NCBI GenBank assembly: GCA_016929065.1
Contig: JAFGJO010000043.1
Span: forward strand, 62,001 to 126,000
Direction of reading: 5' to 3'
Source of the DNA: Spirochaetales bacterium
GTDB taxonomy: Bacteria; Spirochaetota; Spirochaetia; SZUA-6; RPPD01
Length of the DNA: 64,000 nt
Positions 5,285 through 49,191 of the stretch are shown here, in pieces; within the stretch, counting starts at the first letter, position 1; each line of letters begins with the position of its first letter. Both the position numbers and the translations under genes were made by a program. A model generated the notes under the pieces. It was not told the origin of the DNA and did not search any database. It saw only the letters and a list, made by a program, of their open reading frames with translations.

Positions 5285-5767
5285 TTATTCTTGAGTGGGC
5301 TCGATTGTCAGCTTGCGTAGACCTTTTGCAGGCGGATTAACAAACTGCAGCCGCCATAACGGATTATCTTTTGTTGGTACGATTACTGCCGGGTATTCAA
5401 TTTCAACCATATGGATCCCAACCGGACCTGCGACCATCAATTGGCAGATACCCGGCGCCAAATCACCATATATATACGGGATACTGAATGAAACGCTCCC
5501 GTCTTTATGGCTTTTAATATTTTTATCTTCGGTGACAACGCCAAGGGTCTTCCCTGCCCGGTCGATCACATATATTTCGATAATTGTTTCAGATCCCCAG
5601 TTGAAAATTGATATGAGATATCCGGGATATCCATTTTCGAGCTGTATCCCCTCTTCAAGGTATATTTCCACTTTTTTGGAATCATACTCTTTATTTTCCT
5701 GTGAAAACACAAATGAATTGACCGCAATAAAAATCAGTATCATCATTATCATACGTTTATATTTCAT
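5285..5767 (-). CDS. Secreted protein of unknown function
   Basis: A 160-residue protein with a clear Sec signal peptide (MKYKRMIMMILIFIAVNSFVFS, cleavage likely before QENKEY). There is no lipobox cysteine, so it is probably soluble in the periplasm or exported further. The mature part is short and beta-rich (YLISIFNWGSETIIEIYVID...). This would suit a single immunoglobulin-like or C2-like sandwich, but I do not recognise a family. GAGGAC precedes the ATG at the right distance. It converges on the WYL gene. Three copies of ATTGAAT or its complement lie just upstream (5782-5817). Confidence 0.65.
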   Translation of the reverse strand: MKYKRMIMMILIFIAVNSFVFSQENKEYDSKKVEIYLEEGIQLENGYPGYLISIFNWGSETIIEIYVIDRAGKTLGVVTEDKNIKSHKDGSVSFSIPYIYGDLAPGICQLMVAGPVGIHMVEIEYPAVIVPTKDNPLWRLQFVNPPAKGLRKLTIEPTQE

Positions 5768-5863
5768 TATTTTGTCCTCACATTGAATTTATTCAATTAA
5801 TTCGTCTCAATTGAATCATCAAAAAAAACAGCAGGAACAGTTTTCACACTTCCCTGCACATTT

Positions 5864-6310
5864 CTACTCCGGCAGCTCTTTTTCAGCCCAGACATGCTCT
5901 TGTTCTGGTGTTCCTCCGTCGTGCCAGGCCATGTAATTGGCATTCCAGTCAAGATTGCTTTCGAGTTTTTCCGGAGTAATGTTTAACAACCCGGCACACA
6001 GGGAGATGACAACCTTGCGCGGCAGGATCCCTTTATATTTTCTTTTTGCCAGCCTGACAAGACTTTCACTCAACCAGGAACCGGGGTCGGTTTTGCTGTG
6101 CCAGTAATTTAAAGAAGAATACATTGATTTCAGTTCCTCAAGAGTGAGCCTGTATTCTTTATTGTTGTAATCCACACAGGCTTCGGCATTGAAGTTGGCA
6201 AACCATTTGTCAAACTCGTCTTTTTTATCTGTTTTCATCTCATTCGAATAATAATCGGTTTCCCACGGGGATTCAATAAATAAAACAATCCGCTGTATTT
6301 TATTTTTCAC
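5864..6310 (-). CDS. Protein of unknown function
   Basis: A 148-residue predicted cytoplasmic protein with no signal peptide or membrane segment, rich in aromatic and charged residues. I recognise no domain. The start at 6310 lacks a good Shine-Dalgarno, so a later ATG (residue 25, MKTDKKDEFDKW) is possible. It lies on the minus strand between the secreted protein and the sugar-1-phosphate transferase gene, with about 75-bp gaps on each side. Codon use looks like that of its neighbours and the frame is clean, so I take it as real. Confidence 0.55.
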   Translation of the reverse strand: MKNKIQRIVLFIESPWETDYYSNEMKTDKKDEFDKWFANFNAEACVDYNNKEYRLTLEELKSMYSSLNYWHSKTDPGSWLSESLVRLAKRKYKGILPRKVVISLCAGLLNITPEKLESNLDWNANYMAWHDGGTPEQEHVWAEKELPE

Positions 6311-6384
6311 GGCATGAATATGAGAGAGAGTAACCGCTTTTCACTGAAATTATTGATGATGAAAGTGTCTGTCACGTTTTTCAG

Positions 6385-7521
6385 CTATCCGATACGCGTG
6401 TTTTCCTTGTCATCGTGTTTTTCGTGTGCTTCTTTTTTCTTTGACTGAACAAGGTGCAGGATTCCATATCCCATGACCAGCCCGATCCAGACTACAAATA
6501 CAATAAGTACATGGAGGGCTTTGTTCGGCAGAATATCCGAAGTAAGTGTCACGGAAACAATACTCAAATACAAACAGACAGAGTAAACCACAGCGAGAAT
6601 TTTTTTCTCGCTTAATCCAAGATCAAGAAGTTTATGATGGATATGTTCCTTGTCTGGTGCTGCAATAGACTGCTTTCGCCTGATCCTTCTGAAAATGGCA
6701 GCAAGCGTATCAATAATGGGAACAAGCAGCACAGTAATGGGAATCAGCAGCGAACCGAATGTGCCTGCCGCAGATATCCCTTTTTGTGTCAGCCCCATCA
6801 GCGGAAAAACTGCAAGTGCAAATCCCAGAAAAAGGCTCCCGGAATCCCCCATGAATATTTTTGCGGGCGGGAAATTATACCGCAGAAAGCCGGCGAGGGC
6901 GCCCAGCAAGGCAAAGGCCATGATTGCCGTTGCAACCTGCCCCCCGCCGCCCAAAAGCGCGATAACGCCCATTGTAAGTGCGGCAAAAGAGGCTATACCG
7001 GCACTCAGGCCGTCCATTCCATCAACCAGATTCATGGCGTTGGTAATACCGACAATCCAGATAATGGTCAGCGGGTATGCAAAGAAGCCGAACTCAATAG
7101 TCCCCAGGCCCGGCAGCCATATTGACTTGACAACAAATCCGCCTGCCGTGACCACACCGGCAGCGAGTATCTGAATAAGAAATTTTAATGCTGCCTTCAG
7201 ACTGTAAAAATCATCAATCAATCCAAGCAGATAAATCATGAGAAATCCGGAAAACATCCAGACAAGCCTGATATTGAGAAATGTATATGACTGGGCACCG
7301 AATACGGTATTGAAAATAATCGGAACAACGATGATACTGACAAAAAAAGAAGTAAAAATTCCCACACCGCCGAGACGCGGGATGAGAACGGTATGAATTT
7401 TTCTGTGGTCAAGCCGGTCATACCAGCGGAACCGGTGGGAAATTCTAATAATACTCGGAGTCAAAACAAGATTAAGAATTGTTGCAGAAAGTGCAACACA
7501 AAAAACCAATAACAGATTCAT
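6385..7521 (-). CDS. Polyprenyl-phosphate sugar-1-phosphate transferase (WecA/TagO/MraY family)
   Basis: A 378-residue integral membrane protein of glycosyltransferase family 4, which transfers a sugar-1-phosphate (GlcNAc-1-P in WecA/TagO) from UDP-sugar to undecaprenyl phosphate. This is the first membrane step of many surface glycans. Visible motifs are LGGVGIF near the N-terminus, the aspartate pair LIDDFYSL, NAMNLVDGMDGLSAG (the NxxNxxDGxDGL signature) and FMGDSGSLFLG. A cytoplasmic HIHH motif (KEHIHHKLLDLG) is of the WecA/TagO type. About ten transmembrane helices are apparent. It is closer to WecA/TagO than to MraY because of HIHH and the tail. No other glycan genes adjoin it, so the product cannot be specified. 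Confidence 0.88.
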   Translation of the reverse strand: MNLLLVFCVALSATILNLVLTPSIIRISHRFRWYDRLDHRKIHTVLIPRLGGVGIFTSFFVSIIVVPIIFNTVFGAQSYTFLNIRLVWMFSGFLMIYLLGLIDDFYSLKAALKFLIQILAAGVVTAGGFVVKSIWLPGLGTIEFGFFAYPLTIIWIVGITNAMNLVDGMDGLSAGIASFAALTMGVIALLGGGGQVATAIMAFALLGALAGFLRYNFPPAKIFMGDSGSLFLGFALAVFPLMGLTQKGISAAGTFGSLLIPITVLLVPIIDTLAAIFRRIRRKQSIAAPDKEHIHHKLLDLGLSEKKILAVVYSVCLYLSIVSVTLTSDILPNKALHVLIVFVVWIGLVMGYGILHLVQSKKKEAHEKHDDKENTRIG

Positions 7522-39847: not shown

Positions 39848-41569
39848 TTATCGGGTAATTTCGAGCGCAACCGAGGAATTATTCGCATACATAAACTCGC
39901 TTACCGGATAATATCTGTTTCTGCCGATCATGCTCAATCCGTCCCCGTAACGCACACCATTCACTCCCCAGTCACTGGGCAGCGGGTCATACATAATAAT
40001 GTACTTTTTATCCCGGGTATACCCCTTCAGAATCGCGTAATGCCCGGTTGAATCCGAATAATACGCACCGAATAAATCGGTCTGGGGGTCTCCTGCTGTA
40101 TGCGATATTTTACCGCAGTGATAGCCCACCACGGCAATATTCTGGCGGTCAATAATAGCAAAAAGATCCTCTGCAGAAAAAATATTGGTATAGGATGATT
40201 TCACCCCGTTTTCTGCCATTGCGAGCTGCAGATCCTTCAGGCTGGTCGAACCATTCCCGTACCAGCCGATAAAATCCCGGACTTCGGGAACCGGGATATA
40301 TCTTCCCCTGGCCCAGGCGATACCAATTGAAACAGTTGTCGGCCCGCAATTTGACAGCCCGGTGCCGTATTGAGTTTGATACCAGTCAATGTCTACACGG
40401 TCTGAATGTATTGAATCCAGCGGGCTGACAAAAAGACTTACAAGAATTGTTCTGTATTTTTCCTTGTACTTGAGCTGAAAATATCCGGAGGCTTCAGTCT
40501 GATAATAATACACTCCATCAGATTTTTCGATAAACCGCACCGGCCGCTTGATTTTTCCGGTCATATCCTTTGCTTCGGTTATTTCGCCGTCAAGCGGAAA
40601 AATATCACCGACATTATTCACTGTTAAAAACAAACGGTCGGATTTGTATTCATATCCATAATGCGGAACATATACATAGAGCTGATTTGATTCAACACGG
40701 GTCCCCTCACTGTCACGGACCGTCAGCATGACTTTATACAATCCCGGAACCGAATAGGTATACACGCAGACTTTCTGCATGATTTTCTGTCCGTCCCCCA
40801 AATCCCATTGATAATTAAAATTCTTCCCGAGAATTTTTGTATCAATTGAGAAAAACGCAGTAATGCCTTTTCCCCTCGACTGTGTCTGGACGGATATGTT
40901 CAATTCTTTGGGGAGCGCATCACTCACTGCCGCAGATGCGCCTTCTGTCGATACCAGATGACCAACTGCCTGCCGGCGGGCTGAATTCATAAACCGCCGG
41001 ATATTTACCATCGACGGTATTTTGATCATTTGGCCGGGAACAAGAGTATCTGACGGCCCCAGGTTGTTATAAACACGCAACTCTGCAGCCCGCACATTGA
41101 ACACATATGAAATACCATGGAGTGTATCTTTTTCCTTTACAAAATAGTCAATATCTTCAACGCGGTTGATGGCAAGCTGACCGATCCCATTTTCTATAAA
41201 TGGAATCTGGGGAATATTTTCATAAATATTTTGTTCAGAGGCAATTACAAGCAGTGATTTTATATCGTATGGAAAATAGTTGCTCATCACGGAAAATGCA
41301 ACAACCGAGGCAAAAAGCACTGCAACAGAACTGACAATGATATATTTTTTATAGGGAATCATCCTGGATAGAACATGTTTTTTTATGAGCTTGCGGAATT
41401 GTTTTGAAAATATTTTCAGCCATAATTTTGCTGATTCAAGAAGTCCCAACATGACGTCTTTCCATTCACGAAATTTGGGTTCCATTATTCTGTTTTTAAA
41501 GACATTGATTAATTCCAGCATCTCTCGCCCATCGTGTGAAAGCTCATGCCAATCTGCCCGAGCATTCAA
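39848..41569 (-). CDS. Membrane-anchored LysM-PKD-C39 peptidase-like protein (paralogue 1)
   Basis: A 573-residue protein with a long basic cytoplasmic tail (1-74), one transmembrane helix (about 76-95), a LysM peptidoglycan-binding domain (about 141-186, YFVKEKDTLHGISYVF...), a PKD-like domain (about 230-300, YQWDLGDGQK) and a C-terminal papain-like C39 domain. Triad candidates are C408 (SNCGPTTVS), H510 (GHYAILKGY) and D528 (YDPLPSDW). Predicted location is the periplasmic side, tethered to the inner membrane and to the wall. The start is uncertain: TTG 41569 has no ribosome-binding site; ATG 41521 is an alternative. A clear paralogue lies at 45805-47433. Substrate unknown. Confidence 0.82.
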   Translation of the reverse strand: MNARADWHELSHDGREMLELINVFKNRIMEPKFREWKDVMLGLLESAKLWLKIFSKQFRKLIKKHVLSRMIPYKKYIIVSSVAVLFASVVAFSVMSNYFPYDIKSLLVIASEQNIYENIPQIPFIENGIGQLAINRVEDIDYFVKEKDTLHGISYVFNVRAAELRVYNNLGPSDTLVPGQMIKIPSMVNIRRFMNSARRQAVGHLVSTEGASAAVSDALPKELNISVQTQSRGKGITAFFSIDTKILGKNFNYQWDLGDGQKIMQKVCVYTYSVPGLYKVMLTVRDSEGTRVESNQLYVYVPHYGYEYKSDRLFLTVNNVGDIFPLDGEITEAKDMTGKIKRPVRFIEKSDGVYYYQTEASGYFQLKYKEKYRTILVSLFVSPLDSIHSDRVDIDWYQTQYGTGLSNCGPTTVSIGIAWARGRYIPVPEVRDFIGWYGNGSTSLKDLQLAMAENGVKSSYTNIFSAEDLFAIIDRQNIAVVGYHCGKISHTAGDPQTDLFGAYYSDSTGHYAILKGYTRDKKYIIMYDPLPSDWGVNGVRYGDGLSMIGRNRYYPVSEFMYANNSSVALEITR

Positions 41570-41696
41570 ATAAGTTTATTCTGTAGTAGTAATATGGAAA
41601 TTCTGCCGAATCTCCGTATCACTATACAAAATTATCAAAGTTTTGAAAAGAGGGAATCATATTTATTTCATATATTGTATAATTGCTATATTATTG

Positions 41697-42770
41697 TCAA
41701 TATGCCTGGCCTTTTTTATCACGAAACGGAATAAAACTCACACTCATTCCGGAATAGACATCCCGTCGGGTCAGTTTTATTTTTTTATCTTCTGTCTCTT
41801 CCTTGCGCATCTGCATGATATACTGCCGCCCGGGAGGGCCAAGCGGTGCAACAATAATCCCGTCATTGCTCAGCTGCTGTATCAGCGGCGGCGGGACGTG
41901 GTCAATTCCGCAGGTAATGATGATGCGGTCAAAGGGAGCATACTCTTCCCACCCGTAAAAACCGTCATCAAGCTTTCGATGAATATTTTTATATGTCGGG
42001 TAATCCGCCTCCAACGACGTATACAGCTCATCAGTCTCTTTCGCCAGCGGTTCAATAATTTCAATACTGAACACATAATTTGAAAGATGCGAAAGGATTG
42101 CAGACTGATACCCTGATCCGGTTCCGATTTCAAGCACCCGGTGCTGCGGTTCAATTTCAAGAGACGTCGTCATCATTGCAACAACATCCGGGTCGGTAAT
42201 GGTTGCCCCGTGTCCGATCGGCAGCCAGCTGTCATCATATGCCCGGGCAATATTCGGTTTTCTTACAAAATGTTCACGCGGGGTAAGTAAAAACGCCTCG
42301 ATGACGCGGTCGCCGACAAGTTCCTTGGATTCAATATATTTACTTGCAAGGCCCCAACGAGCGGTGATAAAATCGACTTCTTCAGCAGTATTTTCATGCA
42401 TCCATTTCAAATATCCGTTCAAATCACGAATCGGGGGCCTGTTTGTCTGCTTTGTTATATCATACGCAACAGCCAAATTCCCTGCCTTACTGTTGTTCCC
42501 CGAAATTCCAGCCTTCACGCTCACTGCACCGGCATTTTCAAGCACAGTGTTCATTCCTCTCAGGCCCTCTGATTCAAGCATCTGATTGAAAAAGAAAAAC
42601 CCAAAGAGAAAAAGAAAAAGTACTGCTACAAGTGAAGAAAAAACAATCAACGTCTTTTTGTTTATTTTCATGGCAACCGAGGATGATGGACCGGTGTTTC
42701 CCTGGCTGCTACATTCCTGACAAATATCGCCTTCTTCAACATCAAGGCCGCAAATTCTGCAACTATTCAT
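41697..42770 (-). CDS. Zinc-ribbon, TM helix and protein-L-isoaspartate methyltransferase fusion
   Basis: A 357-residue protein. The N-terminus is a four-cysteine zinc ribbon (C4, C7, C17, C20). A basic stretch (KINKK) precedes one transmembrane helix (about 40-63). After a linker, about residues 120-350 form a PCMT-type domain with IGHGATITDPDVVAMM and the SAM-binding VLEIGTGSGYQSAIL. PIMTs repair isoaspartyl residues in damaged proteins and normally are soluble and cytoplasmic. By the positive-inside rule the methyltransferase here would face the periplasm, where SAM is not known to be available, so orientation or function is open. GGAGAGG precedes the ATG. Confidence 0.85.
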   Translation of the reverse strand: MNSCRICGLDVEEGDICQECSSQGNTGPSSSVAMKINKKTLIVFSSLVAVLFLFLFGFFFFNQMLESEGLRGMNTVLENAGAVSVKAGISGNNSKAGNLAVAYDITKQTNRPPIRDLNGYLKWMHENTAEEVDFITARWGLASKYIESKELVGDRVIEAFLLTPREHFVRKPNIARAYDDSWLPIGHGATITDPDVVAMMTTSLEIEPQHRVLEIGTGSGYQSAILSHLSNYVFSIEIIEPLAKETDELYTSLEADYPTYKNIHRKLDDGFYGWEEYAPFDRIIITCGIDHVPPPLIQQLSNDGIIVAPLGPPGRQYIMQMRKEETEDKKIKLTRRDVYSGMSVSFIPFRDKKGQAY

Positions 42771-42941
42771 TTAAAAACCTCTCCATGGTAATACAGCTTA
42801 TTCCCTTTTCAAGAATTGCACATACTTTATAAAAATGTCGGGAATTAATCAATTCACTCGATACGAGTATTTACAATACAACAAAACTATTTTTCAATCA
42901 ATACCGAATCTTTCCTGGTATGTATTCATGCAGAATAAATC

Positions 42942-42970
42942 TTGTGATATTCAGAATTCCCTGCTATAAT
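42942..42970 (+). promoter_or_regulatory. Promoter of the spermidine-synthase-like gene
   Basis: TTGTGA (42942-42947), 17 bases, TATAAT (42965-42970). It lies in the divergent spacer and reads towards the polytopic gene. Confidence 0.72.
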
Positions 42971-43008
42971 GCGAACCATTCACCATCTGCGGGAAAAGCA
43001 TTTTTTCC

Positions 43009-45618
43009 ATGATTTCCGCGATGCATCAAAGGGGGAAAAAGGATACTTCCGGCTCTTGTACGGACAGATCCTTTCATTATACGTGTATGAAGAATATCAA
43101 CTTTAAAATGATTTCGCTCGCCATATTCTCGGCAGTATCAATCGCATATGAGCTGTTCATCATGAGAGTTTTTTCAATCGGCAGCTGGTCAAATTTCGGG
43201 TTTCTGGTCATCAGTACCGCGCTGCTGGGCTTTGGACTCGCAGGAACGCTGCTTTGCTTTCTAAATAAAAGCATTAAAAAATCACCCCAGCGGTGGATCA
43301 GTGTCACTGCAATTGTCTTCATCCCCACCATGGTGCTGGGATTCGTTCTCACACAACAAATCCCGTTTAATCCCATTTTTGTAACATCGGATTTGTTCCA
43401 GCTTTTCTGGATAGCTGTCTATTACATATTGTTCGGAATTCCCTTTTTCATGATTGCCCTTTTTACCGGACTCATCTTTATCACATTGAGCTCCAGGATT
43501 AACCAGTTGTATTTCTGGAACATGGCCGGGTCGGGACTCGGCGGCCTCATCATTATTTTGTGCATGTATGTGATTCCGCCGCAGCACCTTCTACTCCCGT
43601 TATTGCTGTTGTCGCTAATCGCCGCTTTCCTGAGTTTCCTCAATTACAGTCCGGCCAATAACCGGGTTATGGTAAAACGGGAATATCTCATCTCTCTGGG
43701 ATCTGTGGTTGTTGCCTCATTGATTGTGCTTTTGCTCTTCGGGAACATTAAGGTATCCGAATTCAAATCGATCAGCTATGTGCGAAAATACCCTGATGCC
43801 CGGCTTGTCCATCATTCCTTCTCGCCAATGGGAGAAATTGACGTGTTCAACAGCTCAAGGTTTCATTCCGCACCCGGCTTGAGCGATATTGCCATCATTG
43901 ACCTCAAAGAGATTCCCAAACAGGATTTCTGGGGACTGTATACTGACGGCGATGGTCCGTTTCAGGTAATGGGAAAGCTCGAGGAATCGAGTGCTGCTTA
44001 CATGGACTACCTGCCCCTTTCTGCCCCCTATACAATTCTTGACAAGCCGGATGTGCTGCTCGCCAATTTAAACGGCGGAATCAGCGCCCAGCTTGCATTG
44101 TATAAAAACGCCCGGAAGATTACCATCGTTGAACCGAATTACGAGCTCGTCGGGCTTCTGCGGGATGATCCGGTTTTGAGCAAATTCAATGATCATCTGC
44201 TGCTGCGCGGCAATGTTTCCGTGGTGACCACCAATCCGCGCGCGTATTGTGCATCACATCCGGATTCCCAGGACCTTATTGAAATCAGCCTCATTGACTC
44301 AATTGGCTCGAATGGGGCCTGGGGTCATTCAATAAATGAAAATTTTACCTATACAAAAGAAGCAATCGCAGATTACATGCAGGCATTAAAACAAAACGGC
44401 ATTCTCGCAATTACTGTCTGGAACGGCCTGATACCTCCTCGGAATGTTCCCAAAATACTCTCTTCGATTATTGTTTCTTTGCGTGAACAAAATATACGTA
44501 ATATTGACAAGCGGCTTTTTGTGTTTGACCTGCACCGGTCCACCGCGACGATCCTGATCAAAAATACCGATTTTATCCCCGGCGAAATCAACAACCTTGT
44601 TTCATTTATCCGCGACAAGGCCTTCGACCCGGTATACTATCCCGGGATCCCGAAAAATCCCAGGAGCTATGAGAGCATCATGGCAACTTACAGAAATTAC
44701 TTCACCAACGAAGTAAATATGAACGAAGTGAAACGGGACACATCCATACTTGATTTCAAGTCGAGTGATTTTTATCATCACATGATTCTTGAAATGCTCG
44801 CCGGACGCGAAGAAGCACTGTTTCGCAATTACATTTTTGACATTTCACCGATGACCGACGACCGGCCATACTACAGTGTGTATCTGAAACCCGTACAAAT
44901 GAGTTATTACCTTGATCAACTCCCCGATATAATGGAGGAATGGGGGCTGCTTTTGGTCATCGGCATATTCATGCAGTCTATACTGTTCGGTGCCATCATT
45001 ATTCTTCTGCCGCTTTTCGGCCGTTTCAAGGTACTGCTCGTGGATAAAAAAGCGGCCGTCAAAACGATTATTTATTTTTCATGCCTGGGTCTGGGATACA
45101 TGTTCATGGAAATGTTTCTGATCCAGCGGCTAGTGTTCTTTATCAGTGATCCCATTTTCTCTGTATCAATCGTCCTTACCTCGATGCTGATCATTTCCGG
45201 CATCGGCAGTATTATCAGCGGACGTTTTCAGTATAAACGGAGTACCGTTGTCCTGATTGCGGTCGGCGGCATTGTAGCATCATCGCTGTTTTATCTATTT
45301 GGCCTCTCCCCTCTTTTGCGTTCACTTCAGGAAATTCATTTTGCCCTGAAAGTTATCATCTCGATCATCATCATTGCACCGTCTGCTTTCTTTTTGGGGA
45401 TGCCGTTTCCAAACGGATTGCGCGCTATCAGCGACCATATGCCCGACCTGTTACCCTGGACCTGGGGAATGAACGGAGCGCTCTCGGTTACGGGTGCTGT
45501 ACTGTGCAGACTCATTTCCATCACCTTCGGTTTTTCACTCGTGCTGGTGCTCACCATGGCAATCTATATTACTGCTGCTCTCACGTTCCCGACGTTTGCA
45601 AAAAAACTTTTACGGTAA
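43009..45618 (+). CDS. Polytopic spermidine-synthase-like membrane protein
   Basis: An 869-residue protein with about seven to eight N-terminal helices (to about residue 245), a soluble Rossmann-like domain (about 250-630) and several more helices to the end. The central domain resembles membrane-bound spermidine synthase-like proteins (SRFHSAPGLSD, TDGDGPFQVMG). The glycine-rich SAM loop is degenerate (LLANLNGGISAQLALY), though the acid at the end of strand 2 remains (TIVEPN). Classical aminopropyl transfer is therefore doubtful. Start is uncertain: ATG 43009 or ATG 43087 (MKNINFKM, just before the first helix); neither has a strong ribosome-binding site. Divergent from the PIMT fusion gene. 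Confidence 0.8.
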   Translation: MISAMHQRGKKDTSGSCTDRSFHYTCMKNINFKMISLAIFSAVSIAYELFIMRVFSIGSWSNFGFLVISTALLGFGLAGTLLCFLNKSIKKSPQRWISVTAIVFIPTMVLGFVLTQQIPFNPIFVTSDLFQLFWIAVYYILFGIPFFMIALFTGLIFITLSSRINQLYFWNMAGSGLGGLIIILCMYVIPPQHLLLPLLLLSLIAAFLSFLNYSPANNRVMVKREYLISLGSVVVASLIVLLLFGNIKVSEFKSISYVRKYPDARLVHHSFSPMGEIDVFNSSRFHSAPGLSDIAIIDLKEIPKQDFWGLYTDGDGPFQVMGKLEESSAAYMDYLPLSAPYTILDKPDVLLANLNGGISAQLALYKNARKITIVEPNYELVGLLRDDPVLSKFNDHLLLRGNVSVVTTNPRAYCASHPDSQDLIEISLIDSIGSNGAWGHSINENFTYTKEAIADYMQALKQNGILAITVWNGLIPPRNVPKILSSIIVSLREQNIRNIDKRLFVFDLHRSTATILIKNTDFIPGEINNLVSFIRDKAFDPVYYPGIPKNPRSYESIMATYRNYFTNEVNMNEVKRDTSILDFKSSDFYHHMILEMLAGREEALFRNYIFDISPMTDDRPYYSVYLKPVQMSYYLDQLPDIMEEWGLLLVIGIFMQSILFGAIIILLPLFGRFKVLLVDKKAAVKTIIYFSCLGLGYMFMEMFLIQRLVFFISDPIFSVSIVLTSMLIISGIGSIISGRFQYKRSTVVLIAVGGIVASSLFYLFGLSPLLRSLQEIHFALKVIISIIIIAPSAFFLGMPFPNGLRAISDHMPDLLPWTWGMNGALSVTGAVLCRLISITFGFSLVLVLTMAIYITAALTFPTFAKKLLR

Positions 45619-45629
45619 TTGACACTCAA

Positions 45630-45692
45630 TTTACCGGTAAAAGTATGAATATTTATATAAGCTGTCCGGTTTTATCGGACAGCCCTTATATA
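45630..45692 (+). other. Palindrome and hairpin between the polytopic gene and paralogue 2
   Basis: TTTACCGGTAAA (45630-45641) is a perfect 12-base palindrome. GCTGTCCG/CGGACAGC (45661-45668 with 45676-45683) is flanked by TATATAA/TTATATA pairs (45654-45660 with 45686-45692) with a two-base bulge. No T-run follows, so termination would be inefficient. CGGTAAA recurs twice more at about 45719 and 45730. Confidence 0.5.
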
Positions 45693-45804
45693 TTGGTATT
45701 GCGGTTATCTTGAATTCACGGTAAATTAGCGGTAAAGAATCTTTGAAAATAGTAAGATAATAATAATAGAGACCCAAAACACGGGAGGGGTTACCATTAA
45801 TACA

Positions 45805-47433
45805 ATGAAAAAGATACATTCCATTCTTTCAGTCCAATCAGTAGGAAAACGAAGCAGGAAAAGAAAAAAACATTCAAAAAAGAAAGCTGCTTTTTCCTTT
45901 TCAATCATATTCGATTTTATAAAAAATAATCGTGAAATGTCCCTGTATATCACTACCGGAACCTTTGCTGCAGTGGGGCTGGCTATACTTTTACTCCTCA
46001 CTTTTGTCGTATTTCCCGGCACAAACCAGGATGCCCTTACCGATCAGGAAATTTTTCTGCACGAAGACGGCGATGAAGTGGGAACCGGGTATGCGCAAAT
46101 AAAACGCGACACGGACATTGAATATACAATAAAGAAAAAAGACACCCTCTATGAACTGGCATACCTCTACGAAGTCGATGTGGACGAACTGGTCAGCTAT
46201 AACGATATAAAAGATGTGACAAAACTGATGCCGGGGCAAAAAATCCTCATTCCGTCAAATGACAATGTCTCGAAACTGCAAAAAGAACAGAAAATTGCGC
46301 GTGAAAAGGAAGCGGCAGTGATCGCTTCGAAACCGCCGGTGCCAAAACCGAAAAGCGTGCTGCCTTCATCCGTTCAGATCAGTGCAGAACAACAGTCTGA
46401 CGGACAATCCCTGACGGTCAATTTTACCATCGATACAGACATCGATGAAAAAAACACCTATACCTATATCTGGAATTTCGGCGACGGAAAAAAAGCTTTT
46501 CACAAGACAACTCGCTACACCTATGAAAAACCGGGCACCTATAATGCCTATTGTACGATTGTTGACAAGTACGGGTACAAGAAAGATTCAAACCGTATTT
46601 TTATTGATATTCCACATACCGGAACGACAAAAAATACGAAATACCAGTTTCTGACATTAAACTCAACAGGCCTTTCATTCAAAACCAGCGGCCCGGTCAT
46701 CAGTATCAACGGGCAACCAGCCGAAGATGCTGCCGTGGTGACCCTCATCGCAGAGAATGAAAACCGCTTTGTCTACCGTGCGGACAAGGCCGGATATTTT
46801 TTTCTGGTTGTTGAAACTGCCGATACAGTCCAGAAAATAAATTTGTTCGTCAGCCCGGTCGCATCCGTGCATTCAGAGCGTACCGATGTCAACTGGTACC
46901 GGACGCAGTTCAATACGGGGACCCCTTCAAACTGCGGCCCGGCAACCGTATCCATGGGAATCAGCTGGGCAACCGGCTCCTATGTTCCGGTTTCGACGAT
47001 CCGGCAGGAAGTCGGCTGGTCCGGCAACGGGGGGACGAACTTCAGCTCCCTCGGCCAGTCCCTTAAAAATCACGGGGTTGCCTATAATGACCGTGAAATC
47101 ACCGGTGCCGACGATATTTTCCCCATGATTGACCAGGACCACATTGTCATCATCCTGCATAACAGCGGGAGGATAACCTCACGGGGAGAATCGGTTTCCG
47201 CAAGCAATTTCGGCAGGTATTATACAGATTCGGTGAGCCACTATATTATCATTAAAGGGTATTCAACAGACAAAAAATATTTTATTGTGTACGATCCCCT
47301 CCCGAGTGACTGGATTTCAAACAGTCTCCGGTATACCGACGGGATCAGCATGCTCGGCCGCAACCGGTATTATCCGGTAAGTGAAGTAATCCGGGCCCTC
47401 CGCACCCACCGCGTGCTCGAAGTCATCCGGTAG
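45805..47433 (+). CDS. Membrane-anchored LysM-PKD-C39 peptidase-like protein (paralogue 2)
   Basis: A 542-residue protein with the same architecture as the protein at 39848-41569: very basic cytoplasmic tail (1-45), one helix (about 48-70), LysM (about 105-150, YTIKKKDTLYELAYLYEVD), a charged linker, PKD (about 195-270, YIWNFGDGKK) and C39-like domain with C377 (SNCGPATVS), H479 (SHYIIIKGY) and D497 (YDPLPSDW). The C-terminal GRNRYYPVSE is shared with the paralogue. GGGAGGGG lies 14 bases before ATG 45805, too far; an in-frame ATT at 45796 would have ideal spacing. Probably a wall-associated periplasmic cysteine peptidase or amidase of unknown target. Confidence 0.84.
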   Translation: MKKIHSILSVQSVGKRSRKRKKHSKKKAAFSFSIIFDFIKNNREMSLYITTGTFAAVGLAILLLLTFVVFPGTNQDALTDQEIFLHEDGDEVGTGYAQIKRDTDIEYTIKKKDTLYELAYLYEVDVDELVSYNDIKDVTKLMPGQKILIPSNDNVSKLQKEQKIAREKEAAVIASKPPVPKPKSVLPSSVQISAEQQSDGQSLTVNFTIDTDIDEKNTYTYIWNFGDGKKAFHKTTRYTYEKPGTYNAYCTIVDKYGYKKDSNRIFIDIPHTGTTKNTKYQFLTLNSTGLSFKTSGPVISINGQPAEDAAVVTLIAENENRFVYRADKAGYFFLVVETADTVQKINLFVSPVASVHSERTDVNWYRTQFNTGTPSNCGPATVSMGISWATGSYVPVSTIRQEVGWSGNGGTNFSSLGQSLKNHGVAYNDREITGADDIFPMIDQDHIVIILHNSGRITSRGESVSASNFGRYYTDSVSHYIIIKGYSTDKKYFIVYDPLPSDWISNSLRYTDGISMLGRNRYYPVSEVIRALRTHRVLEVIR

Positions 47434-47624: not shown

Positions 47625-48467
47625 ATGGCAAAAAAACCAAAAACTGCATGGATCCGGCTGACCGTGCAAATTATCTTTTTTGCACTGGTTGCCCTGATTA
47701 CATTCAATCACACCATGTCGGAAGCAGGAATATCCATTCCGTTTTTTGAATCGGCATCGATCCATGCGATTTGTCCATTCGGCGGGGTTGTTTCCATTTA
47801 TCAGTACATTACCGGCGGGACATACACCCAAAAAATACATCAGAGTTCGTTTATTCTGATGTATATTGTCCTGGCTGCTGCATTATTGGCTGGACCCGTT
47901 TTCTGCGGATGGGTATGCCCCTTCGGCAGTTTTCAGGAATGGATTGGGAAAATCGGCAAAAAGATTTTCAGGAAAAAATACAACAACTTCATTCCAAAAA
48001 AAATCGATTCGATCCTGCGGTATCTCCGCTACGGAGTGCTTGCCTGGGTAGTGCTCATGACCGCGCTTACCGGCAAGCTCATTTTTGAGAATGTTGACCC
48101 GTATGCAGCACTTTTTCACTTGTATTCCAGCGAACTTGCAATCGGCGGGCTTATCGCCCTTGCTGTCGTGTTTGTTCTCTCCTTCTTTATTGATCGACCC
48201 TTTTGCAAATATGCCTGTCCGTACGGCGCACTGCTCGGGATATTCAATTTGTTCCGTATTTTTAAAATCAAGCGGAATGAAGCAACCTGCATCAGCTGCA
48301 GCAAGTGCGACAAGGAATGCCCGATGAATATTGAGGTTTCATCCAAAAAAAATGTCCTTGACCATCAATGCATCAGTTGTTTAAAGTGTACTTCCGAGCA
48401 GGCCTGCCCGGTAAAAAATACTGTTGAACTGATGACAGGTAAAATGGAGGCAAAAGATGAAGCTTAA
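47625..48467 (+). CDS. NapH/YccM-like membrane iron-sulfur protein
   Basis: A 280-residue membrane protein with about five helices. Cytoplasm-facing cysteine motifs are ICPFGGVVS, CGWVCPFGSFQEW and CKYACPYGALL, as in NapH and NosR. A C-terminal two-cluster ferredoxin domain follows (CISCSKCDKECP and CISCLKCTSEQACP). Such proteins pass electrons from quinol or ferredoxin across or along the membrane to a partner enzyme. AAAGGAGG lies 5 bases before ATG 47625. It overlaps the next gene by 11 bases. No nitrate or nitrous oxide reductase is in the window, so the acceptor is unknown. Confidence 0.9.
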   Translation: MAKKPKTAWIRLTVQIIFFALVALITFNHTMSEAGISIPFFESASIHAICPFGGVVSIYQYITGGTYTQKIHQSSFILMYIVLAAALLAGPVFCGWVCPFGSFQEWIGKIGKKIFRKKYNNFIPKKIDSILRYLRYGVLAWVVLMTALTGKLIFENVDPYAALFHLYSSELAIGGLIALAVVFVLSFFIDRPFCKYACPYGALLGIFNLFRIFKIKRNEATCISCSKCDKECPMNIEVSSKKNVLDHQCISCLKCTSEQACPVKNTVELMTGKMEAKDEA

Positions 48468-49191
48468 TTCCAGAATTATCGCGCCTGCAATCATCATTTT
48501 GTTTGCTGTTGGCATATCGGGTTCTATCGCATTCAACCTGTGGCAGACAGCGGGTTCAAAATCCGCAGCCGACATCAAAACTCCGGCAGATATAAAGGGT
48601 TCCAAAGAATTTTCAATCATTGCAGAAGGGCTTGGCATTCCCCTTGCGGACATGCTCGCTGCATTCGCCATAACCTCAAAAACCGACCTCAAATGCATGG
48701 AACTGGAGAAGTTTTACAGCGGGGTTGAAGGTGGTGAAATCGGCACCGATTCGGTAAAGCTGTTTGCATCACTATATACCGGCCTCCCCCATAACCCGGA
48801 GGAAGATACAAGACTGCCCATGCAGGCCTATGACGTACTGAAGCAACACATCGACCCTGTAGTACTGGAATCCAATAAATCACGTTTTATTGAGGTAAAA
48901 GCCGCCGCTGTTTTACCAGCCGAACCGCAGACAATCGAAACAAATACGGCATCTTCCGGAGCGGTCAAGAGTGAATCAGAAACCCACGACTCCACTGCGA
49001 CTGATGCGGAAATAACGGGGAAGACCACTTTTCAGGACCTTGTCAACCGGGGTGTATCAAAACAGGAAATAGAGGCAGTCACAGGGCCAATCAGTTCCTT
49101 ATCTGATACAATAAAAAGTACAGCAGAAGCCAAAGGAGTAGAATTCAGTGAATGGAAGACTCCTCTGCAAGCACTGATGAACTCAAAATAG
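48457..49191 (+). CDS. Membrane-anchored partner of the NapH-like protein
   Basis: A 244-residue protein with an N-terminal signal-anchor (IIAPAIIILFAVGISGSIAF). Residues about 45-110 read DIKGSKEFSIIAEGLGIPLADMLAAFAI, and residues about 185-215 read EITGKTTFQDLVNRGVSKQEIEAV. Both fit the short repeated helical module (ITG-T-x-D-L..GI...) often found at the ends of NapH/4Fe-4S membrane proteins. A serine/threonine-rich linker joins them. GGAGG precedes the ATG inside the upstream gene. Role is likely to be assembly or docking for the NapH-like protein; that is inferred from linkage. Confidence 0.7.
   Translation: MKLNSRIIAPAIIILFAVGISGSIAFNLWQTAGSKSAADIKTPADIKGSKEFSIIAEGLGIPLADMLAAFAITSKTDLKCMELEKFYSGVEGGEIGTDSVKLFASLYTGLPHNPEEDTRLPMQAYDVLKQHIDPVVLESNKSRFIEVKAAAVLPAEPQTIETNTASSGAVKSESETHDSTATDAEITGKTTFQDLVNRGVSKQEIEAVTGPISSLSDTIKSTAEAKGVEFSEWKTPLQALMNSK

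Follow-up and report, generated by a model that had tools for sequence, protein, structure and literature searches.

A recurrent gene pair of a predicted exported isoaspartyl methyltransferase and a SpeE-like membrane protein, with LysM-PKD-C39 companions in a spirochete lineage: a tentative envelope protein-maintenance module

Introduction

Isoaspartate damage builds up in long-lived proteins. Cytoplasmic protein-isoaspartate methyltransferases (PIMT, or Pcm; PF01135) methylate isoaspartyl residues inside the cell, after which aspartate is restored, and both this known repair enzyme and its donor, S-adenosylmethionine (SAM), are regarded as cytoplasmic. Here, we analyze a four-gene block in a 64,000-nucleotide stretch of a Spirochaetales genome (the window; bare coordinates refer to it). 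Its inner genes encode a PIMT that is predicted to be exported and a polytopic membrane protein with a domain resembling spermidine synthase (SpeE), and its outer genes encode two proteins with LysM, PKD, and C39-like domains. The unit of interest is the pair of exported PIMT and SpeE-like protein.

Each part of the block both resembles and departs from a described family. The window PIMT shares with Pcm the catalytic domain and intact SAM and substrate motifs, but it is predicted to be exported and membrane-anchored, has a cytoplasmic zinc ribbon, and is gene-paired with a protein of 14 transmembrane (TM) segments; it also falls outside the clade formed by the order's cytoplasmic PIMTs. Spermidine synthases (PF01564) use the catalytic Asp of a DxxD motif. 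The membrane protein shares with them profile similarity over the SAM-type fold, but its domain is inserted between two blocks of seven TM segments, is predicted to be extracytoplasmic, and has no aligned catalytic Asp. Membrane proteins of Legionella adelaidensis and Alkalihalophilus pseudofirmus, annotated as “SAM-dependent methyltransferase” or “spermine synthase,” have the same polytopic layout with an alignable TM1 and C-terminal TM region; unlike the window protein, they are not beside a PIMT and have other partners. The C39-like domains share the Gln, Cys, His, and Asp of Peptidase_C39_2 (PF13529), to which they are borderline by score, and differ in being joined to LysM and PKD domains and an anchoring TM segment, with no ABC transporter fusion. 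In Rhodopseudomonas palustris, the PIMT RPA2580 is reported to be needed for survival in growth arrest, and the authors note missing substrate residues (PMC5705917). In graspetide clusters, which make ribosomally synthesized and post-translationally modified peptides (RiPPs), PIMT homologues co-occur with C39 peptidases (PMC8939145). A search of the open-access full-text literature, which did not cover subscription papers, returned no description of an exported PIMT/SpeE-like pair.

Results

Layout of the four-gene block

The block lies on contig C65 of a 3.49-Mb draft genome (G000). An earlier interpretation made from the letters alone (the sequence-only reading) had described four open reading frames here, and all four were found at the ends it gave, with the layout it described, in two divergent halves:

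39848..41569, minus strand: C39_B, 573 aa from a TTG start (downstream ATGs possible); LysM 144-185, PKD 234-299, and a C39-like domain further downstream, the same architecture as C39_A, to which it is 39% identical (Pfam)
41697..42770, minus strand: PIMT fusion (357 aa) with a zinc ribbon at its N-terminus, CRICGLDVEEGDICQEC, one TM helix at ~40-62, and, at 150-349, an isoaspartyl methyltransferase domain, predicted extracytoplasmic (Pfam PCMT, 1.9e-45)
43009..45618, plus strand: SpeE-like polytopic protein, 869 aa; seven TM segments, a SpeE-like domain of ~400 aa (~250-640, predicted outside), seven TM segments (36-sequence alignment, loop charges, profile match to spermidine synthases)
45805..47433, plus strand: C39_A, 542 aa; basic cytoplasmic tail, TM ~47-70, LysM 107-150, PKD 191-264, C39-like domain 366-498 with Q368/C377/H479/D497 (Pfam; residues invariant in 23 homologues)

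Homologues of the SpeE-like protein start near Met27 (43087), and the ATG at 43009 is possibly too early. Everything except the zinc-ribbon tail of the PIMT, the tails of the C39 proteins, and the membrane helices is predicted to lie outside the cytoplasm, in agreement with the envelope location proposed earlier.

The PIMT and SpeE-like genes form a recurrent pair

To follow the genes across genomes, we used 26 genomes of the order and 296 of the phylum, the latter including the window's own. The SpeE-like gene occurs in 24 of the 26, and a PIMT gene is directly adjacent, on the same strand or divergent, in 21 of these 24. The two genes occupy separate loci, with both kept, in G021 and G016 and for the window-type copies of G015, G017, and G018. 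Outside the order, SpeE-like matches occur in 28 of the 296 phylum genomes, with a PIMT adjoining in 11 of the 20 loci retrieved; other orders and classes have the pair too (L205-L210, L212-L216), as do plasmids from Microvirga, Phyllobacterium, Sinorhizobium chiapasense, Rhizobium jaguaris, and Paraburkholderia. Several pairs have a 4-bp gene overlap, and where a genome has more than one SpeE-like copy, each is mostly accompanied by a PIMT. The expectation that these genes stay neighbors beyond chance in related genomes thus held for the pair, within the order, in other classes, and on plasmids.

The partners also appear to be inherited together. Across 38 paired loci, the PIMT and SpeE-like trees correlated with r = 0.76 (the maximum of 2000 permutations was 0.28), a value that does not control for species phylogeny. 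One genome, G018, holds three different pairs (L102, L103, and L104), and each of its PIMTs clusters with that of the corresponding pair in other genomes. We conclude that a functional link between PIMT and SpeE-like protein is very likely and that the pair, as a two-gene unit, is older and far more widespread than the four-gene set, occurring also in bacteria without such C39 proteins. A scan of viral contigs was empty.

Paired PIMTs carry export signals and keep their motifs

The window PIMT scores 155.6 bits against Pfam PCMT (cut-off 20.3; E 1.9e-45), its nearest solved structure is 3lbf (E = 5e-35), and of the family models, those of ordinary bacterial PIMTs score it best (185 bits; cut-off 188). 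This match, the zinc ribbon, and the single helix ahead of the domain bear out the fusion described by the sequence-only reading. Both the SAM motif (VLEIGTGSGYQ) and the substrate-side motif (GHGATITDP, with core GATITDP) are intact; the latter reads GxGQTISxP in many paired relatives. The unpaired PIMTs of the order are cytoplasmic, unfused, and ~200 to 225 aa long, a form from which the window PIMT departs and to which the second PIMT of the same genome (the C52 copy) conforms. In the tree, order PIMTs without an export signal make up one separate clade.

Nearly all paired PIMT N-termini that could be judged have a Sec or Tat-type signal (the latter in R. jaguaris, MKRRDFLAGTT), a lipobox, or an anchoring TM segment. 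A strict hydropathy rule was passed by 41 of 48 exported-type PIMTs and by 2 of 25 order PIMTs not beside a SpeE-like gene (p = 8e-11). Five of the seven exported-type failures were read by eye as having a lipobox, Tat signal, signal peptide, or later TM segment; the seven include L112 and L216, for which the script chose a late start. The two unpaired PIMTs that passed, together with L159, lack a normal SAM motif. Since the exported PIMTs retain both SAM and substrate-side motifs, they should be active enzymes. A location of the PIMT outside the cytoplasm is predicted with high confidence.

PIMT-like proteins with export-like N-termini were also noted elsewhere. A third PIMT-like protein of G000 (C65:11029-11619, minus strand; L003, L168:4964-5743) has a signal peptide and a degenerate SAM motif (VLVVGLNTGYL), and its gene adjoins a CAAX-protease-like (Rce1-like) gene; similar exported degenerate copies occur in G021 (L158) and G020 (L159). 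On a plasmid of Mesorhizobium sp. INR15 (L161, 4887-5765), a window-type PIMT (51% identity) has an export-like N-terminus and no SpeE-like neighbor; it stands beside genes for a class I methyltransferase and a glycosyltransferase family 87 protein.

The membrane protein has a degenerate SpeE fold

On its own, the window SpeE-like protein gave no Pfam match, including to Spermine_synth (PF01564), and no NCBIfam match above cut-off, while 13 of 23 family members match PF01564 at E ≤ 0.01. An alignment of 36 homologues gave seven TM segments, ~400 residues, and seven more TM segments, and a 23-member profile matched solved aminopropyltransferases over the soluble domain (best 1uir, E = 2.8e-12). 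The degenerate SpeE fold proposed from the sequence alone was therefore recovered, although Pfam is blind to the single protein. The glycine motif (Gly-Gly), R411, D422, T449, and D617 are nearly invariant in the family, and position 427, which aligns with the catalytic Asp, is Ser, Ala, Gly, Pro, or a gap in 36 of 36. Given this fold and the missing Asp, the domain is SpeE-like in fold and unlikely to act as an aminopropyltransferase. Canonical spermidine synthase (PF01564) is absent from G000.

Predicted-inside loops are richer in Lys and Arg than predicted-outside loops in all 36 homologues, which places the soluble domain, by prediction, outside the cytoplasm. Charged or polar residues are conserved within the TM segments (E48, R53, E701, and N822).

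Other membrane SpeE-like genes were seen along the way. The window's genome encodes a ~1083-aa member followed by a metallo-beta-lactamase-fold lipoprotein (C10; L169:2509-5760 and 5697-6566; also L172), with the same neighbors in G015, and tandem duplicated copies without a PIMT occur at L218 and L220 (G188 and G172).

The LysM-PKD-C39 proteins are a lineage-limited addition

Pfam finds LysM, PKD, and a weak Peptidase_C39_2 match in both outer proteins (PF13529: C39_A 27.1 against a cut-off of 24; C39_B 18.3, below it). Four residues, numbered in C39_A as Gln368, Cys377, His479, and Asp497, do not vary among the 23 homologues compared, so the shared architecture and Cys-His-Asp set noted earlier stand. 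At 39% identity over 452 aa, the two proteins stem from an old duplication. In addition, the G021 orthologue encoded next to the PIMT gene lies closer to C39_B (support 0.964). A recent tandem duplication, which would have undercut the idea of a joint system, is thus not what we found.

The C39 family occurs in 10 of the 26 order genomes: 10 of the 12 with a window-type SpeE-like protein and none of the 14 without (p = 1.2e-5, not corrected for phylogeny). In the C39 tree (FastTree supports; a partial linked copy in G013, L112, was left out), the seven copies beside a PIMT or SpeE-like gene (two each from the window and G021 and one each from G012, G014, and G167) group in a single clade (support 1.000), outside which all 16 unlinked copies fall. 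In G021, the block is split over two contigs, PIMT with C39 and SpeE-like with C39, so that each separated half retains a C39 gene; this scattering favors linkage rather than refuting it. Outside the order, the family was found in 1 of 295 other phylum genomes, G167, in the order SpeE-like (minus), PIMT (plus), C39 (plus), and this is also the only one of the 295 with a window-type SpeE-like protein (46%). In family f5, C39 paralogues are scattered. A scan of named genomes for the C39 pair with weak N-terminal patterns gave one irrelevant LysM-region match only.

The C39 proteins probably belong to the module, as a lineage-limited addition to the PIMT/SpeE-like core. The proposal of one four-gene system accordingly survives as to linkage, but not as a set of four equal parts: the core is the pair, and the C39 genes are confined to a lineage and scattered in f5.

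Discussion

We propose that the block is an envelope protein-maintenance (isoaspartate-repair) module with a dedicated membrane partner, a reading to which we give a probability of roughly 0.42. Linkage, paired inheritance, and intact motifs come from the sequences themselves, while export and topology are predicted; from these we infer the repair, the SAM handling, and the C39 substrate. The PIMT would be held in the inner membrane by its helix, its catalytic domain facing outward. An intact PIMT in that position suggests repair of isoaspartate in envelope proteins: it would methylate their isoaspartyl residues and so allow reversion to aspartate, a role that we moderately favor. SAM would have to reach a PIMT outside the cytoplasm, and the partner, with its 14 TM segments and outward-facing SAM-type domain, could supply or exchange it. 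That domain keeps most nucleoside-binding features without the catalytic Asp, and the protein would most likely pass SAM to the exported PIMT, take S-adenosylhomocysteine (SAH) from it, or at least dock it. That it handles SAM or SAH at all is a doubtful proposition, and it may aid or dock the PIMT rather than be its sole source of SAM. Still more doubtful is a self-contained extracytoplasmic methylation system in which the TM domain exports or exchanges SAM and SAH and the outward SAM-fold domain presents them to the PIMT. In this lineage, the LysM-PKD-C39 proteins would be peptidoglycan-bound, cysteine peptidase-like partners that act on the same envelope proteins, which we offer tentatively. 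Processing or repair of wall-linked proteins, as suggested by the sequence-only reading, is likewise what we infer. If the proposal is true, the recurrence of an exported PIMT with its own membrane partner means that bacteria also repair envelope proteins, and the pair is a defined one for asking how SAM becomes available outside the cytoplasm.

Several observations weigh against this proposal. We know of no established extracytoplasmic SAM pool. Of 20 PIMTs sampled from other orders and classes of the phylum (L226-L245), most have an export-like N-terminus (a lipobox, a signal peptide, or an anchoring TM segment) and lack a SpeE-like neighbor, and their genomes gave no SpeE-like match at E ≤ 1e-15. 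Exported-looking PIMTs so often lack a SpeE-like protein in the phylum that the membrane protein cannot be the sole SAM route. Related membrane SpeE-like proteins also exist without a PIMT (L138-L140, L217-L224), one subfamily adjoining a metallo-beta-lactamase-fold lipoprotein. The loop-charge signal is clear at the TM8 transition but weak at TM7 (3.06 versus 2.72 Lys + Arg), AlphaFold models of C39_A with C39_B and of the SpeE-like protein were of unusably low confidence (pLDDT 37 and 40), and the correlation between the trees may partly reflect species phylogeny.

PIMT export seems widespread in the phylum. The idea that export means pairing, read from the order alone, was rejected on the same 20 PIMTs: pairing implies export, and export does not imply pairing. 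BLAST-based clustering of the neighbors of solitary exported PIMTs gave no recurrent partner, only local synteny, and its C39 cluster held chained false members.

The partnerless PIMTs give the most weight to a reading in which the SpeE-like protein serves the exported PIMT as scaffold, substrate receptor, or regulator and neither transports nor presents SAM, which arrives by another route; there would then be a general SAM route in the phylum, or none at all where the partner is missing. Loss of the aminopropyltransferase Asp fits this reading as well, but a SAM-type fold with near-invariant Gly-Gly, Arg411, Asp422, and Thr449 is odd for a scaffold, and the conserved residues within the TM segments look transporter-like, so that we regard it as possible yet unlikely. 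The same fold, in a genome without canonical spermidine synthase, could instead belong to a second enzyme, a methyl- or aminopropyltransferase acting on an envelope substrate, with the PIMT as a co-expressed companion. We consider this improbable, given that the aminopropyltransferase catalytic position is never Asp in 36 homologues and that the domain is predicted to face away from decarboxylated SAM and polyamines.

RiPP-type PIMTs form aspartimides or isopeptides by methylating Asp or isoAsp, and the exported PIMT could likewise carry out deliberate modification, with a C39 peptidase maturing the product. Graspetide loci do join PIMT-type methyltransferases (TIGR04188) to C39 peptidases (PMC8939145), and the window PIMT gives sub-threshold scores to TIGR04188 (96 bits against 380) and TIGR04364 (77 against 320). 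However, the ordinary bacterial PIMT models score highest, the graspetide PIMTs differ from this one in that it is exported, the C39 proteins here are LysM-anchored single proteins rather than transporter domains, and no precursor-like or ATP-grasp gene was found among Pfam-scanned neighbors (small precursor open reading frames were not systematically searched for). We therefore judge this reading slightly less probable still than a second enzyme. Least probable is that four envelope genes are chance neighbors in inherited synteny without joint function. Family f5, with several PIMT and SpeE-like genes at different loci and unlinked C39 genes, speaks for this, but paired genes are found again in different phyla and as several paralogous pairs within one genome, split genomes retain both genes, and the sole phylum genome outside the order with a C39 protein has it in the same block. 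The maintenance module remains our preferred reading.

Minor features and neighboring genes

Short elements within the block are as follows:

42771..43008, no strand: divergent intergenic region between the PIMT and SpeE-like genes, 238 bp
42942-42970: promoter-like site towards the SpeE-like gene, TTGTGA-17-TATAAT, 10/12 (consensus scan only, which found 18 promoter-like sites against 12.9 expected)
45661..45683, plus strand: 10-pair hairpin with a weak T tail between the SpeE-like and C39_A genes, a possible terminator or attenuator and not evidence of function

A purine-rich GGAGAGG precedes the PIMT ATG. The NapH-like gene downstream of C39_A and the next open reading frame were considered as module members and rejected, as they are not beside the block in the relatives examined. 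In the window (47625-49191, plus strand), this gene, for a NapH-like 4Fe-4S membrane protein with a start probably at ATG 47625, overlaps that for a 244-aa protein of no known family that is TM-anchored.

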